Virus record (IMG/VR): IMGVR_UViG_3300010330_000010
Coordinates: 1 to 57,890 of that record
From: a virus
Strand: one strand, 5' to 3'
Length of the DNA: 57,890 bases
Shown here: positions 6,104 to 31,434 of the stretch, piece after piece
How positions within the stretch are numbered: position 1 is the stretch's first letter
Layout: the number at the start of each line of letters is the position of its first letter
The notes under the pieces: generated by a model
The model's input: only the letters and a program-made list of their open reading frames with translations
Databases searched by the model: none
What the model was told of the DNA's origin: nothing
Made by a program: the position numbers and the translations under genes

Positions 6104-7075
6104 TCAGTAGTCAAACGTCGGGTCCGTCCAACTCGCCCCGCCAAGGTAGATACAGGCACCGGCGCCGCGCTGCGTCACCTTCACGCTCCCATAGCGCCGG
6201 TACATCGTGACGACCTTCGTGAAGTCGTCTTCGGTCTCGGTGATGAGGTCCTTCCCCGGCCCTTCCACGTCGCGCCAGTAACACGGCTTGACGTTGGTGT
6301 CGACGATCAGGACGTAGTTCTCGGGCACCCAATCGTTCACCACGAGCGGCACGCCCGCGAGGGTGATCGGGTTCTCGGGGAAAACCCCGGCCTCCTGCAG
6401 CCGGGCAATCGTCGGCGTCGTGACGTAGTTACTCGTCGTGTTGAGTTCGGCCTTGCCCACCAGCTTCTCGGCCTGCGCGGAGTTCATCCAGCCCATGAGG
6501 CCGCCATTCTGGGCGTACCCATGCTCCAGGATGGTCTGCGTCCCCGCCGCAATATGAGCCACCGCCAGCGAGCCAGAGACATTGTAGGCCAGGTAGTGGT
6601 CATGCGACGTCGTGAAGCTGTTCATCTTGTAGGCAGGCGGGGCGACGGACATACTCGCATCCCAGAAGCCTCCGTCCTTGAGCATCGCCGCGATGACAAG
6701 CTCCTGGATGAGCCGCTCGTCCGCCTTCATCGCGTCCTGCGCCAGGTCGCGAACCTCCTGCGAACTCAGCCCCCGCTCCCACGCCTCCTTGCTGTGCCCG
6801 ACGGCCAGGTGATACTTCACGGGCTCGCTCAGGCTGATGTCGCGGTACAGGTAGCGGTCCCAGCCGGGCTCGCCATGATCGTCGCCACCCGTCCGAAACC
6901 GCGCGGCACTCTGCGCCACGCGTACCGTCTTCTTCTCCGTCCGCACGCAGAACAGGTCGCGGAACAACTCGCGCTCTGCGGCGGTCAGCTCGATCGACCG
7001 AGTAATCTCGGTGTAGAGTATCGAGCTGGGCACGTTGTCCGTGGTGATCAGTCCCTGCGGTGCTCCCACAGCCAT
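6104..7075 (-). CDS. major capsid protein
   Basis: A 323-residue protein, MAVGAPQGLITTDNVPSS. It has the segments expected of phage major capsid proteins: a helical spine-like part (SLSSQEVRDLAQDAMKADERL, shown in part), a body with AGVPLVVNDWVPENYVLIVDT, which is the typical 'G.pvv..d..p....li.d' strand near the C-terminus, and a final beta part (YGSVKVTQRGAGACIYLGG). Start follows GGAGG. It lies directly after the decoration and protease/scaffold genes, and a stem-loop follows it. Mu-type rather than classic HK97 ancestry is suggested by the Mu-like upstream genes. Confidence 0.8.
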   Translation of the reverse strand: MAVGAPQGLITTDNVPSSILYTEITRSIELTAAERELFRDLFCVRTEKKTVRVAQSAARFRTGGDDHGEPGWDRYLYRDISLSEPVKYHLAVGHSKEAWERGLSSQEVRDLAQDAMKADERLIQELVIAAMLKDGGFWDASMSVAPPAYKMNSFTTSHDHYLAYNVSGSLAVAHIAAGTQTILEHGYAQNGGLMGWMNSAQAEKLVGKAELNTTSNYVTTPTIARLQEAGVFPENPITLAGVPLVVNDWVPENYVLIVDTNVKPCYWRDVEGPGKDLITETEDDFTKVVTMYRRYGSVKVTQRGAGACIYLGGASWTDPTFDY

Positions 7076-26085: not shown

Positions 26086-26967
26086 TCACCCCTTCTTCGG
26101 CCCCGCCGGGCAGTGCGGGGTCTCCGCTTGGAGCGTGCGGAGCGGAGTCGAACCGTCGTCGCCGGTGGTCGCGGCGACCCTGCCTCCAGGCGCACGCTCA
26201 TCGAATAGGCCAAGTTGGGCATTGGGCTTGCGCGGGTAATCAGTACCAGTCCACGGGATAGCCCGGCGGAATACGTACTGTCCGGGGGCAATCTGTTCGC
26301 GCCACACACAGTCGCTATCCTTGGGGTAGTCGCCTCGTCGCCACTCTATCGGGCTGCTACGTTGCAGTTCGCGCCACCGGCGCTTGTCGCATAGTGGTAG
26401 ACAGTACCTGAACTGCTTGCCGCGCCATCGCGTGAAGCCCGCGGCGGTCGTCGTCTCAAAGTCGCGTGGTCCGAGGCCGGGCCCGGTGGCCGTCAGGCCT
26501 TGCATGGTGCGAGGATGGACGCGCCCGCCTTGAGCGTCGAGATAGCATTCGGTCCAGATGAAGCCGCCATAGTACCAGTTGGCCGCCTGATACACGTAGC
26601 CGGGCTTGCCGAGGATGCCGTCGGCCCACGAGTACAGTAGCAGCACGTCGGGGAAAGCCGCCCGAATGAGCGCGACTGCGCGTGAGAGGAATTGGCTTTC
26701 ACTGTTGCGCGGCATAGCGTCGTCGATGCAGAACTTGCCTATTTCGAGGTAATCGCGCGAGGCGAGGTCAGGGAACATCTTCCGAATCGTATGCAGGGGC
26801 CGCGTTCCGTAACCGAGCGTGAGGACGCCCATTAGCCGCCCTCCGACCCAGCCGCCGATGCAAGCTTTCGTAATGCGCGGCATGACCTTGGAGTAGTGAC
26901 AACGCTGTATCAGCATTGCCGCAAGGCCCCGCCCGACGAATGAATAGCGGTCGAAAAACTCAGTCAT
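26086..26967 (-). CDS. mom: Mom-like DNA adenine modification protein
   Basis: 293 residues, MTEFFDRYSFVGRGLAAMLI. GGWVGGRLMGVLTLGYGTRP, IGKFCIDDAMPRNSESQFLS and LLYSWADGILGKPGYVYQAA, then NWYYGGFIWTECYLDAQGG, are the pattern of the Mom family, a GNAT-fold enzyme that converts adenine to N6-methylcarbamoyl adenine in phage DNA and protects it from restriction. The ATG at 26967 overlaps the stop of a 47-codon leader frame (ATGA), so translation may be coupled. In Mu, mom is also tightly controlled and overlaps com; here the leader is not a Com zinc finger. The last 35 residues are variable. Confidence 0.65.
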   Translation of the reverse strand: MTEFFDRYSFVGRGLAAMLIQRCHYSKVMPRITKACIGGWVGGRLMGVLTLGYGTRPLHTIRKMFPDLASRDYLEIGKFCIDDAMPRNSESQFLSRAVALIRAAFPDVLLLYSWADGILGKPGYVYQAANWYYGGFIWTECYLDAQGGRVHPRTMQGLTATGPGLGPRDFETTTAAGFTRWRGKQFRYCLPLCDKRRWRELQRSSPIEWRRGDYPKDSDCVWREQIAPGQYVFRRAIPWTGTDYPRKPNAQLGLFDERAPGGRVAATTGDDGSTPLRTLQAETPHCPAGPKKG

Positions 26968-27107
26968 CGCGGCACCGTCCGATTGAGGACAGGTATTCTG
27001 TAATGCTTGGGCGAAGAAAAAGCCCCCACAGAGACCGCGATCCTGTCCAGCCAAGACAAGGAGGCCGCGCTGGTAGTCCCTGTGGGGGCAATCCGGTTGA
27101 TGTACAT
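26964..27107 (-). CDS. leader peptide frame overlapping mom
   Basis: 47 residues, MYINRIAPTGTTSAASLSWL, then SPKHYRIPVLNRTVPR. ATG at 27107 has a strong site AAGGAGG at 9 nt. The frame runs across the attenuator-like structure and its stop TGA overlaps the mom ATG. It may be a regulatory leader rather than a functional protein. Confidence 0.55.
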   Translation of the reverse strand: MYINRIAPTGTTSAASLSWLDRIAVSVGAFSSPKHYRIPVLNRTVPR

Positions 27108-27146: not shown

Positions 27147-27175
27147 ACCATACCACTTCTCGCGCCCTATGTCAA
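27147..27175 (-). promoter_or_regulatory. consensus promoter upstream of the mom leader
   Basis: TTGACA (27175-27170), 17-nt spacer, TATGGT (27152-27147). Transcription would begin around 27140, at the base of the first leader stem. Confidence 0.85.
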
Positions 27176-27192: not shown

Positions 27193-27317
27193 TCGCCGCA
27201 CCTCGCCCTGCCGTACCTGGCCCTGCCATACCTGTCCCAGCCTAACCCTGTCTCGCCTTACCTTGCCATGCCTCACCCTGCCTAGCCATGCCTTGCCGTA
27301 CCCTACCCCGCCCCACC
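27193..27317 (-). repeat. 25-unit pentanucleotide-phase repeat (GGNNN)
   Basis: 125 nt divide into 25 units of 5 nt; on the minus strand 24 of 25 begin with GG (GGTAC GGCAA GGCAT GGCTA and so on) while the other three positions vary. It fills the gap between the Cas7-reminiscent gene and the mom promoter. Confidence 0.85.
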
Positions 27318-27322
27318 TTAAG

Positions 27323-27862
27323 TCAGTTCTGCTGCGCTTCCCAAAGCGTCACCACGAACCGACCCATCGGCCCCTTGCAGTCTGGCCGCCAGTCCAGTAC
27401 GCCCACGCGCGACCCGGCGTCGTCAATGATCTGCCGCAACTGTTTCTGCGTCACCAGCGCCGGGTCGTATCGAATCGCCGCCTCGATGCACCAGTCATCG
27501 AAGCGCGGGCGGTGCCGCACCACGCGGCCCTTCGTGCTTGGCACCACCACCGAGCGGCTGTCGATGGTGTACTCCTGCGGGTCGAGGATGAGGTACTCGG
27601 GCTCGATGGCGATGCAGGCCGCGACGGGCTTCTGCAGGCTGGCGCGGCCCTTGCCCTTGGAGTAGACGGCGGCGCGGATGAGGGCCTGTCGCAGGGCCTC
27701 TGCCGGGATGTACAGCTCGCCGTCCGGGGTGCGATAGGCGGCGATCTCCGCTTGGTCCTCGGGCGTCCGCTTCTCCAGCGGCGGGTCGATGTCCTCCAGG
27801 GGGAATCTGTGCATGAGCAGCGGACTGATACCCGTCAGTTCGACCTTCACGGCGTCCATCAT
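27323..27862 (-). CDS. conserved phage protein with Cas7/RAMP-reminiscent N-terminal pattern
   Basis: 179 residues, MMDAVKVELTGISPLLMHRF. It belongs to a widespread but poorly characterised phage family with DGELYIPAEALRQALIRAAV, SKGKGRASLQKPVAAC, VVVPSTKGRVVRHRPRFDDW and VGVLDWRPDCKGPMGRFVVT. The 'strand, then iPa.al..al..a' layout recalls RAMP/Cas7 folds, but that is only an impression by eye. The start (27862, or 27859) lies 25 nt after a CRISPR array in the same orientation, and codons 7-17 match one spacer. Function unknown; single-stranded nucleic-acid binding is plausible. Confidence 0.7.
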   Translation of the reverse strand: MMDAVKVELTGISPLLMHRFPLEDIDPPLEKRTPEDQAEIAAYRTPDGELYIPAEALRQALIRAAVYSKGKGRASLQKPVAACIAIEPEYLILDPQEYTIDSRSVVVPSTKGRVVRHRPRFDDWCIEAAIRYDPALVTQKQLRQIIDDAGSRVGVLDWRPDCKGPMGRFVVTLWEAQQN

Positions 27863-27887
27863 GGTCACTCTTTTTCGGATGCGTCTC

Positions 27888-28099
27888 CCAGCAGTCCCCA
27901 CGCAAGTGGGGCGCACATGAGCAGCGGACTGATACCCGTCAGTTCGATCCAGCAGCCCCTGCGCGTGTGGGGCGCACGCGCGCGCCGCGAGCGAGATCGG
28001 TGGGCGGAACCAGCAGCACTGGCGCACGTGGGGCGCACTCTGGCAGGCCGATGACGAGGAGCCGTGGCAACCAGCAGCCCCTGCGCACGTGGGGCGCAC
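27888..28099 (-). CRISPR. mini CRISPR array, type I-E-like (4 repeats, 3 spacers)
   Basis: 29-nt repeats at 28071-28099, 28010-28038, 27949-27977 and 27888-27916, separated by three spacers of exactly 32 nt. Reading on the minus strand, each repeat begins GTGCGCCCCAC and ends CTGCTGG around a GCCCC/GGGGC stem. The first is taken as reference; the second has 3 changes, the third 2, and the last several, as expected for a degenerate leader-distal end. 29/32 spacing and the GTG start are hallmarks of type I-E. Spacer 3 (27917-27948) matches 27813-27844 in this genome at 31 of 32 positions. No cas genes lie next to it apart from the Cas7-reminiscent frame. Confidence 0.85.
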
Positions 28100-28163
28100 A
28101 CATCGTTGCGCAGGTTTCGCGCCCAACGCTCCACATTCATACACCCCCCGCGCGCGTGGACTG

Positions 28164-28182
28164 GCCCGGCGTTGCGCCGGGC
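28164..28182 (-). other. hairpin after tnpB (probable omega RNA / right-end stem)
   Basis: GCCCGGCG and CGCCGGGC pair around a CAA loop, 21 nt after the tnpB stop. TnpB guide RNAs cover the 3' end of the gene and finish near such a stem at the element's right end, with the guide just beyond it. The exact end is not visible. Confidence 0.5.
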
Positions 28183-28203
28183 GCTACGGGTAACGTCCCC
28201 GAT

Positions 28204-29400
28204 TCACGCTTCACAGAGCCGCGCCTCCTCAAACGTCGAGCAGGTCTTACCATGCCCTCTACGTGCGTTTTCCGTCTCCGAGGCCTTCTCGGCGACGTGC
28301 CACAAACCGCGGTCGCGGATGTTCTTCGCTGCATTCACGTCAGCATCGGCCGAGTAGCCGCACTCGGCGCATACATAGCGCTTCCCCCGTCGATTGTCGG
28401 CGCTGACGCAGCCGCAGGAGTTGCAGGTCTGTGAGGTGTAGGCAGCATTAACAATCACCAGCTTGCCCCCCCACCACTCGCACTTGTACTCAAGTTGGCG
28501 CTTGATTTCGCCCCAGGCGGCGTCCGAGATGTGGCGGGCGAGGTGACCGTTGCCCAGCATGTTCCGAACCCGCAAGTCCTCAATCACAATCACACGCGGG
28601 CGCTGCTCAGGCGGGAGACCCACCCCGACGAGTTCGCTGGTCAACTCGTGCAGGGCGTTGGCGCGCACGTTGCTGATGCGGAGATGTAGGCGCCCAATCC
28701 GCCGCTTCGTATCCTCGCGTCGGGCGCTACCCTTCTTCTGCCGAGCGAGCTTGCGCTGCAAGTGGGCGAGCTTGCGCTGGGCCGCCTCCAATGCTTTCGG
28801 CCCCGCCCAGCGCCGACCGTCAGAGGCGCAGGCGAGGTCGGTCAGTCCGAGATCAACGCCGAGGGGCTCCCCGGTCGCCATGCCGCGCTCATGTTCCTCG
28901 TCGATCTGAAAACTGACGAACCAGCGCCCGCCGCGCTCGCTGATTGTGCACGATACCGGCTTGACGCCCACCGGAATGTAGCCGCGCTCTTTTGTGCGCA
29001 CCCAGCCGATCTTCGGCAGTTTGACCCGCCGCTCGTCGGCGGCGAGAACACTACCGTAGACGCGGAATGACTTGCGCCCGTGTCGGGACTTGAAGCGAGG
29101 ATAGCGGCCCCGGCCCTCAAAGAAGTTGGTGAAGGCGCGGTTTAGATCTTGTAGCGCCGACTGGAAGCAGTAGTTCGAGACTTCGTAAGTCCACGCGTTG
29201 CACGGATGCGCCTTCCAGCTAGTCAGGAGCCGGTTCATGCGCGCATACGTCAGGCCCACCCCGACTTCTCGGTAGTACCGCTGATTGACCGCGAGCGCCT
29301 GGTTCCACGCCCAGCGAGCGGCCCCGGCGCTGCGTTCGAAGTGGCGCCGCTGTCTTTCGTTGGGGTCAAGCTCAGTGTGGTACGCCCGCCGGACGTTCAC
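28204..29400 (-). CDS. tnpB: TnpB-like RNA-guided nuclease (IS200/IS605-type)
   Basis: 398 residues. RuvC catalytic residues are visible as GVDLGLTDLACASDG (Asp), RVIVIEDLRVRNMLGNG (Glu) and YSADADVNAAKNIRDRG (Asp). The zinc finger between them is QTCNSCGCVSADNRRGKRYV then CAECG. N-terminal helical and wedge parts read RWAWNQALAVNQRYYREVG and FEGRGRYPRFKSRHGRKSFR. All catalytic positions are present, so it may be active. GTG at 29400 follows GGGGAGGG; ATG at 29421 lacks a site. No TnpA transposase is present. A CRISPR array begins about 100 nt downstream. Confidence 0.9.
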   Translation of the reverse strand: MNVRRAYHTELDPNERQRRHFERSAGAARWAWNQALAVNQRYYREVGVGLTYARMNRLLTSWKAHPCNAWTYEVSNYCFQSALQDLNRAFTNFFEGRGRYPRFKSRHGRKSFRVYGSVLAADERRVKLPKIGWVRTKERGYIPVGVKPVSCTISERGGRWFVSFQIDEEHERGMATGEPLGVDLGLTDLACASDGRRWAGPKALEAAQRKLAHLQRKLARQKKGSARREDTKRRIGRLHLRISNVRANALHELTSELVGVGLPPEQRPRVIVIEDLRVRNMLGNGHLARHISDAAWGEIKRQLEYKCEWWGGKLVIVNAAYTSQTCNSCGCVSADNRRGKRYVCAECGYSADADVNAAKNIRDRGLWHVAEKASETENARRGHGKTCSTFEEARLCEA

Positions 29401-29605
29401 GCCCGCCGCCCTCCCCGCCATGCTGTAGCTCGCACAAACAAGCCCCCGGCAACCACAGAGCCTCTGTGGTCACCGGGGGCAAGTAGAAGCCCCTGCGCGC
29501 TGGCCAAGTCCGTGAGGGGAGGGGAGACAGGACGCGAGGCGCGCAGGGGCAATTCTGAGCGTGATGAGCGTCGGTTGTTGTGGATCGACCTGGCCATAGC
29601 TGCAT
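29372..29605 (-). CDS. possible leader frame overlapping the tnpB start
   Basis: 77 codons from ATG 29605 (MQLWPGRSTTTDAHHAQNCP), with AGGAAAG upstream, running through two hairpins into tnpB in another frame. The layout, promoter then leader frame then hairpin then gene, is like that in front of mom. It may be regulatory or accidental. Confidence 0.3.
   Translation of the reverse strand: MQLWPGRSTTTDAHHAQNCPCAPRVLSPLPSRTWPARRGFYLPPVTTEALWLPGACLCELQHGGEGGGRERPAGVPH
29442..29480 (-). terminator. strong hairpin upstream of tnpB
   Basis: GCCCCCGGTGACCACAGAG pairs almost perfectly with CTCTGTGGTTGCCGGGGGC, followed by TTGTTTGT. It could be an intrinsic terminator or attenuator, or the left-end structure of the IS element. 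Confidence 0.65.
29489..29550 (-). other. second inverted repeat upstream of tnpB
   Basis: GCCCCTGCGCGC (29550-29539) pairs with GCGCGCAGGGGC (29500-29489) around a 38-nt loop. The same GCCCCTGCGC string occurs within the CRISPR repeats (complementary strand), which may be chance. Confidence 0.5.
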
Positions 29606-29633
29606 GATCTTTCCTGTCTCCCCAGACATTTTC

Positions 29634-29662: not shown

Positions 29663-30207
29663 GCCCCGATGACCCATATCTGTCGCACGCCCGCGTTATC
29701 GTCGCCCCACAAGCTCCCCCGGACCGGCTCCCAGAAGTCGAGCCACAGGTCGGCGCCCTTGCGCCGCGCCACGCGGTCATTGCGCCTCGCGCCGGTATCG
29801 AGCACCTGCCGGATGCCGGTCCTGGGGTGCCAGACCCACGTGTAGGCGGGCAGCAGGTTGGCCGCGACGCACCGCTCGTCTACGCCGTGGCCGTAGCGCG
29901 TAGTTTGGCCGCGCGGGAAGCCTTCCTCGGGGAAGTAGGTGGTGACCCATGCGCGGACCTGTCGCACGTCGCCCTGCAAGGCGCGTTCGTACCCCTCTCG
30001 CTGCCAGTCCTCAAGTTCTCCGAACCAGCCCGATAATGCCTTGGTCGCGCAGCGTTGCAGCGGTTCGTCCGGCAGGTCCGCCACAGTCTCGACGGCGCTG
30101 TCCGGTTCAGCACTCTCCGCTACTCGCGGCCCCCACGCCACGGCGCACGAGACACCCAGCAGCGTCGCCATCAGCCCGCACGTCACCGCTGTGCGTGGCG
30201 TCCTCAT
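29659..30207 (-). CDS. exported 3D-domain protein
   Basis: 182 residues with a signal peptide (MRTPRTAVTCGLMATLLGVS, hydrophobic core, then AESAEP). The C-terminus has YGHGVDERCVAANLLPAYTW, TGIRQVLDTGARRNDRVARR and KGADLWLDFWEP, the three-Asp pattern of the 3D domain, a double-psi barrel found in cell-wall lytic or remodelling proteins. Start follows GAGGAGGAGG. It is unusual to find this in the early block; it may alter the host wall or exclude other phages. Confidence 0.65.
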   Translation of the reverse strand: MRTPRTAVTCGLMATLLGVSCAVAWGPRVAESAEPDSAVETVADLPDEPLQRCATKALSGWFGELEDWQREGYERALQGDVRQVRAWVTTYFPEEGFPRGQTTRYGHGVDERCVAANLLPAYTWVWHPRTGIRQVLDTGARRNDRVARRKGADLWLDFWEPVRGSLWGDDNAGVRQIWVIGA

Positions 30208-31406
30208 TGCACGTCCTCCTCCTCGCACGTGTCGATGCGGAACCGCTCCGCCCCATTCCACTTCCGCGGCTCCATCATCCCCCGCAGGGCCTCAGCGGCG
30301 GTGTCGGCCTCGCCATACCCGAATGGGTCTTCATCGCGCTCGACGAGGGCCAGCAGGCGACCGAGGGCCTTCGGGTCCGGGTCGGGGAACAGGACCTCCG
30401 TCACCTCGTCCTCGTCAAGGCCCGCATCGATCAGCGCCTCCGCCGCCCGCTGCCGGTCCACGCGCCGCTTGAGCACGTACTCGCCGTCATAGACGGCTGC
30501 CCCGTCACGCTCGACGACGTAGGCCGGCCGCCCGCGATAGGCCACCTTGCCCGCGGCGCTCACCGGGCCGTGCTCGCGCACCCATGCGCTCACCGCATTG
30601 CGGAGGCGCTTGAGGTCGGCCTCGTGGGCGACGATGCGGCGCAGGGCGTCCTCGGCGTCCCCCGCGCACGTGATCGTCACGCCGGTGCCCGCCGCGTACG
30701 GGCACACGTGCGTATAGTCGCACCATGCGCAGGCGTGAGGAGAGGGCGTCGCCTCGAACCGCTTGTCGGCGGCGATGCGTCGCGCAAGGGCCACCGCCCA
30801 ATCCGGGCGCAGTTCGTCGGGACCGACCCACCACTCGTGGGTAATGCCGTTCCCGATGTAGTGCGCGCGCAACATCACGTCGCATGCCCCGCTGAACTGC
30901 GGCATTCGCAGGAGCGCCCAGCCGTACATCATCAGTTGGGCGGGCGGCTCGTCGGGGCGGTCCTGCGCCCAGCTCGACTTGTAGTCAGTCACGAACAGCC
31001 GCCCATCCGCGGTCGCGTACTCCACGAGGTCCACGCGGCCCTTGAACTTCCCGAGGCCGTCGGGCAGGTCGGCGGCGACTTCACGCTCCACGCCCTCGCC
31101 GTCCGCCACCACCAGCTCGCGGTTGAACTCAACCTGCCGGGCGAATGCGCGGCAGAGCCTCTCAACCCCGAGCCCGTCGTCGCGGTAGCCGACGGCCTGC
31201 TCGTCCGCCCACTCCCAATCGCGCGGCAGGCCCGCCTCGATGCAGTGGCGGCCGTACATCTCAGCAAACTCGTGCACGAGCCGCCCGCGGATGCAGGCTT
31301 CGCTCTCCTGCCTCTGCTCGCGGTCCACATAGGCGAACCGCCATGCCAGCGGACAGCGGGCGTAGAGCGACAGGCTGCTGTAGCTCACGTGTGTCGGTTC
31401 GGTCAT
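30204..31406 (-). CDS. PD-(D/E)XK exonuclease, Cas4/RecB-like
   Basis: 400 residues, MTEPTHVSYSSLSLYARCPL. YSSLSLYARCPLAWRFAYVD and IRGRLVHEFAEMYGRHC are the opening motifs of RecB/Cas4 nucleases. The catalytic core is GRLFVTDYKSSWAQDRPDEP (D-x-K). PHACAWCDYTHVCPYAAG with the N-terminal Cys can form the Cas4/AddB-type iron-sulfur site. ATG at 31406 follows GGAAGGAG. In phages this gene type acts in recombination or DNA degradation. The structured RNA lies in its 5' leader. Confidence 0.8.
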   Translation of the reverse strand: MTEPTHVSYSSLSLYARCPLAWRFAYVDREQRQESEACIRGRLVHEFAEMYGRHCIEAGLPRDWEWADEQAVGYRDDGLGVERLCRAFARQVEFNRELVVADGEGVEREVAADLPDGLGKFKGRVDLVEYATADGRLFVTDYKSSWAQDRPDEPPAQLMMYGWALLRMPQFSGACDVMLRAHYIGNGITHEWWVGPDELRPDWAVALARRIAADKRFEATPSPHACAWCDYTHVCPYAAGTGVTITCAGDAEDALRRIVAHEADLKRLRNAVSAWVREHGPVSAAGKVAYRGRPAYVVERDGAAVYDGEYVLKRRVDRQRAAEALIDAGLDEDEVTEVLFPDPDPKALGRLLALVERDEDPFGYGEADTAAEALRGMMEPRKWNGAERFRIDTCEEEDVQ

Positions 31407-31434
31407 CACGGTCTCTCCTTCCGGGTCCGTCCGT

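Follow-up and report, generated by a model that had tools for sequence, protein, structure and literature searches.

The viral record IMGVR_UViG_3300010330_000010 of IMG/VR, analysed over its full 57,890 nucleotides (nt) and referred to here as the window, contains a clustered regularly interspaced short palindromic repeat (CRISPR)-like mini-array on the minus strand at 28099-27888, beside a gene that we take, from homology, to be vipr. The third spacer (S3) matches the start of this gene at 31 of 32 positions and the vipr of a sibling phage at all 32. We put at about 50% the probability that the element is a host-dependent, virus-borne mini-array with S3 aimed at the vipr of competing close siblings. 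This reading follows from a pattern equal to that of the archaeal viruses SPV1 and SPV2, whose mini-arrays carry spacers against close relatives, with targets near the array and the carrier's own orthologous site mutated (PMC6858448); phage mini-arrays with a like pattern are mentioned in the same paper and reviewed in PMC11656645. The array in the window shares with SPV1, SPV2, and some of these phage mini-arrays the lack of cas genes, the small number of spacers, a perfect match to a relative, a mutated own site, and a nearby target. Unlike SPV1 and SPV2, the carrier is a bacterial tailed phage, the repeats are divergent and type I-E-like, no leader was recognized, the spacers number three rather than one or two, and the array is placed in a VIPR locus and aimed at vipr. 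The kind of element is already known, but in the literature searched neither a vipr target nor placement in a VIPR locus is described for it.

The array comprises four CRISPR-like 29-nt repeats (R1 to R4) and three 32-nt spacers (S1 to S3) with an exact 61-nt period. Along the minus strand, the order is R1 (28071-28099; GTGCGCCCCACGTGCGCAGGGGCTGCTGG), S1 (28039-28070), R2 (28010-28038), S2 (27978-28009), R3 (27949-27977), S3 (27917-27948), and R4 (27888-27916). Repeat and spacer lengths are those of type I-E arrays, as are the AAG protospacer-adjacent motif (PAM) 5' of the S3 target and the identity of the final repeat base with the final PAM base (G). R4, which adjoins S3, is the only repeat with the canonical type I-E fold, consisting of a 6-bp stem, a tetraloop, and an 8-nt 3' end resembling the type I-E handle. 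Unlike type I-E arrays, the stems of R1 to R3 are shifted or broken, and neither a leader nor nearby cas genes were recognized with the repeats. An Rfam search gave no match. The vipr reading frame is open across the whole array to a GTG at 28144 (27323-28144, minus strand, 273 amino acids [aa]), which is probably a by-product of high G+C.

The match of S3 (27948-27917, CRISPR RNA [crRNA] sense, minus strand) to its own genome lies at 27844-27813, covering codons 7 to 17 of the minus-strand gene that starts at 27862, 25 nt beyond the last repeat (27888). The sole mismatch is at spacer position 1, and AAG stands immediately 5' of the protospacer on the same strand (27847-27845). A match of this type is expected by chance within the window at ~2e-12. 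These positions, proposed in the sequence-only reading, were all recovered on recomputation, and the array geometry, the match, and the PAM support its view of an acquired type I-E-like spacer. Its claim that identity ends exactly at the spacer borders was close, but on the side away from the PAM the identity takes in one further base, belonging to the repeat, so that the exact duplicate is 27812-27843 with 27916-27947. The repeat divergence, the vipr homology of the target, the pentanucleotide tract beside it, and the perfect match in the sibling go beyond that reading.

The sibling, IMGVR_UViG_3300033148_005636 (59,357 bp), is collinear with nearly the whole window, mostly at 86 to 96% nucleotide identity. 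Alignment across related phages had been proposed as a check, and the sibling's vipr has both the AAG 5' of the protospacer and a 32/32 match to S3, with identity reaching one base past each spacer end; the base on the PAM side is the G common to the PAM and the repeat end. Because the sibling matches at 32/32 and the carrier at 31/32, S3 fits the sibling better than the carrier. Of the two targets suggested earlier, the phage itself or a close relative, the data therefore favor the relative, the own match being imperfect and mismatched at seed position 1. No array-like repeats are present in the sibling genome. The two vipr genes differ at 42 of 525 nt compared. At spacer position 1, the carrier has GTC (Val7) and the sibling has ATC (Ile), and V7I is the only amino acid difference in Vipr residues 2 to 122, all others in the compared stretch being at residue 123 or beyond. 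The chance of a single difference landing on one given spacer position of 32 is 3%. The coincidence of V7I with spacer position 1 is suggestive, short of proof.

An array without cas genes of its own would have to borrow type I-E machinery from the host cell. If the array is transcribed and processed, S3 crRNA with a compatible host Cascade would bind the sibling genome at the start of vipr during coinfection or superinfection, and that genome would be destroyed or silenced at vipr. A strike on vipr would hit the sibling genome and its RNA-guided weapon together, to the presumed advantage of the carrier, which would be largely spared by the difference in its own vipr at spacer position 1, beside the AAG PAM. 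The carrier's mismatch with S3 is rA-dC. In E. coli type I-E, passages of PMC13122317 indicate that target changes to C or G can, with some pairings, be highly deleterious when they fall on position 1, 2, or 4 of the seed, that rU-dC at position 1 makes cleavage 23-fold slower, and that rC-dC is worse than rU-dC or rA-dC. Judged by these passages, the carrier mismatch belongs to a class (target C at position 1, 2, or 4) for which a strong loss of type I-E interference is possible. Since they contain no rA-dC value for position 1, protection of the carrier is inferred by analogy.

The AAG-flanked 31/32 match lies just past the array, at a gene start suited to repression, and could also serve self-regulation, in which S3 crRNA and host Cascade would repress the carrier's own vipr start while the mismatch averts destruction. 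This is unlikely, since the seed is weakened: according to the same passages of PMC13122317, Cascade already binds more slowly when seed position 1 is mismatched, and PAM-distant mismatches would be the better design. In addition, the array-free sibling retains a nearly identical vipr. Among the roles first offered for the spacer, attack on competing phages is thus favored and guide-directed repression is disfavored by the place of the mismatch, while a self-targeting relic is a serious rival, considered below.

The targeted gene (27323-27862, minus strand) encodes 179 aa and is taken as vipr because its product matches SUSP1 Vipr and a GGYNN tract lies downstream. In a single-sequence phmmer search, one convincing solved structure was found, 36pp_D “SUSP1 Vipr protein” (E=1.9e-10); a profile search for Vipr is partly circular, as the profile includes a close relative of SUSP1 Vipr. 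The product also matches phrog_4652 (E=1e-22), a phage family of unknown function, and had no match in a Pfam search. A two-row structure prediction gave a mean predicted local distance difference test score (pLDDT) of 44.9, which is too low for a search for the RAMP/RRM fold, with its G-loop and thumb, expected of Vipr. The tract directly downstream of vipr (27193-27317, minus strand), a candidate vrRNA, has 25 pentanucleotide units, of which 23 start with GGY, compared with none in shuffled sequence. GGYNN tracts are present at 14 of 16 vipr loci examined, the window included. VIPR tracts are expected to have 9 to 16 repeats ahead of a conserved, structured tail; the downstream tracts count 25 units in the window and 17 in the sibling. 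Eight successive NN pairs (AT TA AG GA AT AA AA GA) are common to the window tract and the sibling tract (6532-6616), the former having additional internal units.

VIPR was described in a 2026 preprint (PMC13142463) as an RNA-guided system whose RAMP protein is proposed to be older than Cas5/6/7. Its vrRNAs alternate GGY with NN, and DNA is read with one base skipped. VIPR is used between phages, and since some vrRNAs already aim at other VIPR systems (PMC13142463), vipr is, by analogy, a plausible CRISPR target. No vrRNA targets above background were found in the window and sibling under the 1-nt-skip rule, and matches under a skip of 3 were the tracts themselves. The locus resembles VIPR loci in that a phage-borne vipr homologue has a GGYNN tract beside it. 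No accessory gene (vap) was identified, no neighboring gene having been compared with the vap families. In contrast to the preprint, whose authors report VIPR loci to be without CRISPR arrays, the upstream vrRNA slot here holds tnpB and an array. Array-like repeats were absent near vipr at the 15 other loci examined, which comprised the sibling and 14 further loci from phages of Pseudomonas, Gordonia, Mycobacterium, Shigella, Escherichia, and others and from three plasmids. CRISPR-type guides used or processed by Vipr itself, as a mixed VIPR/CRISPR guide format in an array wired into the locus, would be the least probable explanation; the array-free sibling has a Vipr that shares 95% identity with the carrier's.

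In the sibling, the 425 bp upstream of vipr contain two GGYNN tracts; in the window, they are replaced by a segment of tnpB and the array (27872-29613), whereas the downstream tract occurs in both. A promoter-like site on the minus strand (29662-29634; TTGACA-17-TAGCAT with TG) resembles one in the sibling and could be the source of segment transcription. As the contig is metagenomic and the sibling lacks the tnpB-array segment, the segment might be an assembly artifact, with a host array and tnpB misjoined into a phage contig. Both flanks of the segment are collinear with the sibling, however, and two false joins at one locus, exactly at the sibling's variable guide DNA slot, would be needed, which makes misassembly highly improbable.

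Several observations weigh against a functional mini-array. Repeat identity to the reference copy is 74 to 90%, below the near-identity expected of type I-E arrays. R1 and R3 fold with a shifted stem and a 9-nt loop, while R2 folds differently and the type I-E stem is absent. No leader was recognized beside the array. A strong hairpin and the T-rich stretch after it, which together resemble a terminator, separate the promoter-like site from tnpB. S1 and S2 had no match to the window above background and no targets in the sibling, phages, or viral contigs. The array repeat, searched in exact or relaxed form, was absent from other viral contigs, where a relaxed array pattern gave chance matches only. 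In the species genomes scanned, the repeat had 11 matches, all single and none within an array. A mini-array for interviral conflict would be expected to have the repeats of its host's CRISPR system. Because the repeat was found in no scanned genome array and in no other virus, no matching host Cascade was identified, and relatives of the terminase and helicase indicated no clear host. Finally, V7I comes from comparison with a single sibling, and either allele may be the derived one.

The degenerate repeats, the lack of a recognizable leader, and the failure to find a host array keep alive an explanation that we regard as possible but clearly less probable: a host had acquired a spacer against the lineage of this phage, and a piece of its array, carried in with the TnpB element or inserted next to it, became part of the phage genome, where it now decays as a functionless remnant. 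The mismatch at the carrier's own site would then be an escape from host immunity. The broken stem, the empty target searches for S1 and S2, and the mobile element adjoining the array fit such a relic. It accounts less well for the fact that the spacer beside the intact R4 is the one still perfect for the sibling, and for the placement of the array precisely between phage genes, in a guide RNA slot next to its target. Repeats changed in the stem and handle region could alternatively act as an RNA anti-CRISPR decoy, sequestering host Cas proteins, with the spacers incidental. The decoys described in PMC11656645 are single repeat units, but the window has four repeats set apart by spacers of exact length, one of which finds a perfect target, and we consider a decoy very unlikely.

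If the favored reading of a mini-array against sibling vipr is correct, a phage wields CRISPR against VIPR, a system proposed to predate it, which is not described in the VIPR literature found, and vipr matters enough in phage-phage competition to be targeted. This suggests that one RNA-guided system has been turned on another in virus-virus conflict. The allele pair ATC/GTC at spacer position 1 is directly testable. The locus also shows vrRNA guides and a CRISPR array swapping places.

The tnpB gene (28204-29421, minus strand), upstream of the array, encodes an IS200/IS605-type RNA-guided nuclease that matches NCBIfam NF040570 guided_TnpB (E=1.4e-89) above its cut-off. TnpA is lacking, and the RuvC motifs DLGL, IEDL, and DADVNAA are present. 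The TnpB guide RNA would be expected to stop just short of the CRISPR array. Use of the array by TnpB as a type V effector was rejected on the basis of NCBIfam cut-offs (73 bits against 450 for Cas12f2 and 90 against 350 for C2c8, compared with 301 against 100 for guided_TnpB), the 29/32 geometry, and AAG. TnpB homologues were absent from the four genomes reached, and there were no type I cas genes among the 20 window proteins scanned. The Cas4-like matches of the protein encoded at 30204-31409 fell below the NCBIfam cut-off, and this protein agrees with families of phage exonucleases. Upstream of tnpB, a stretch of 21 nt (29478-29498) shares 86% identity with 28066-28086, in R1 and the start of S1; the likeness may be fortuitous or a remnant of the array's arrival.

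On the other side of vipr, a good sigma-70-like promoter (TTGACA-17-TATGGT, 27147-27175, minus strand) lies directly past the vrRNA tract and is conserved in the sibling. Just downstream of the tract is a Mom-like DNA modification gene (26086-27054, minus strand; Pfam PF25680, E=5e-42). The sibling holds only ~25 bp in its place, and vipr is therefore bordered by variable slots on both sides.
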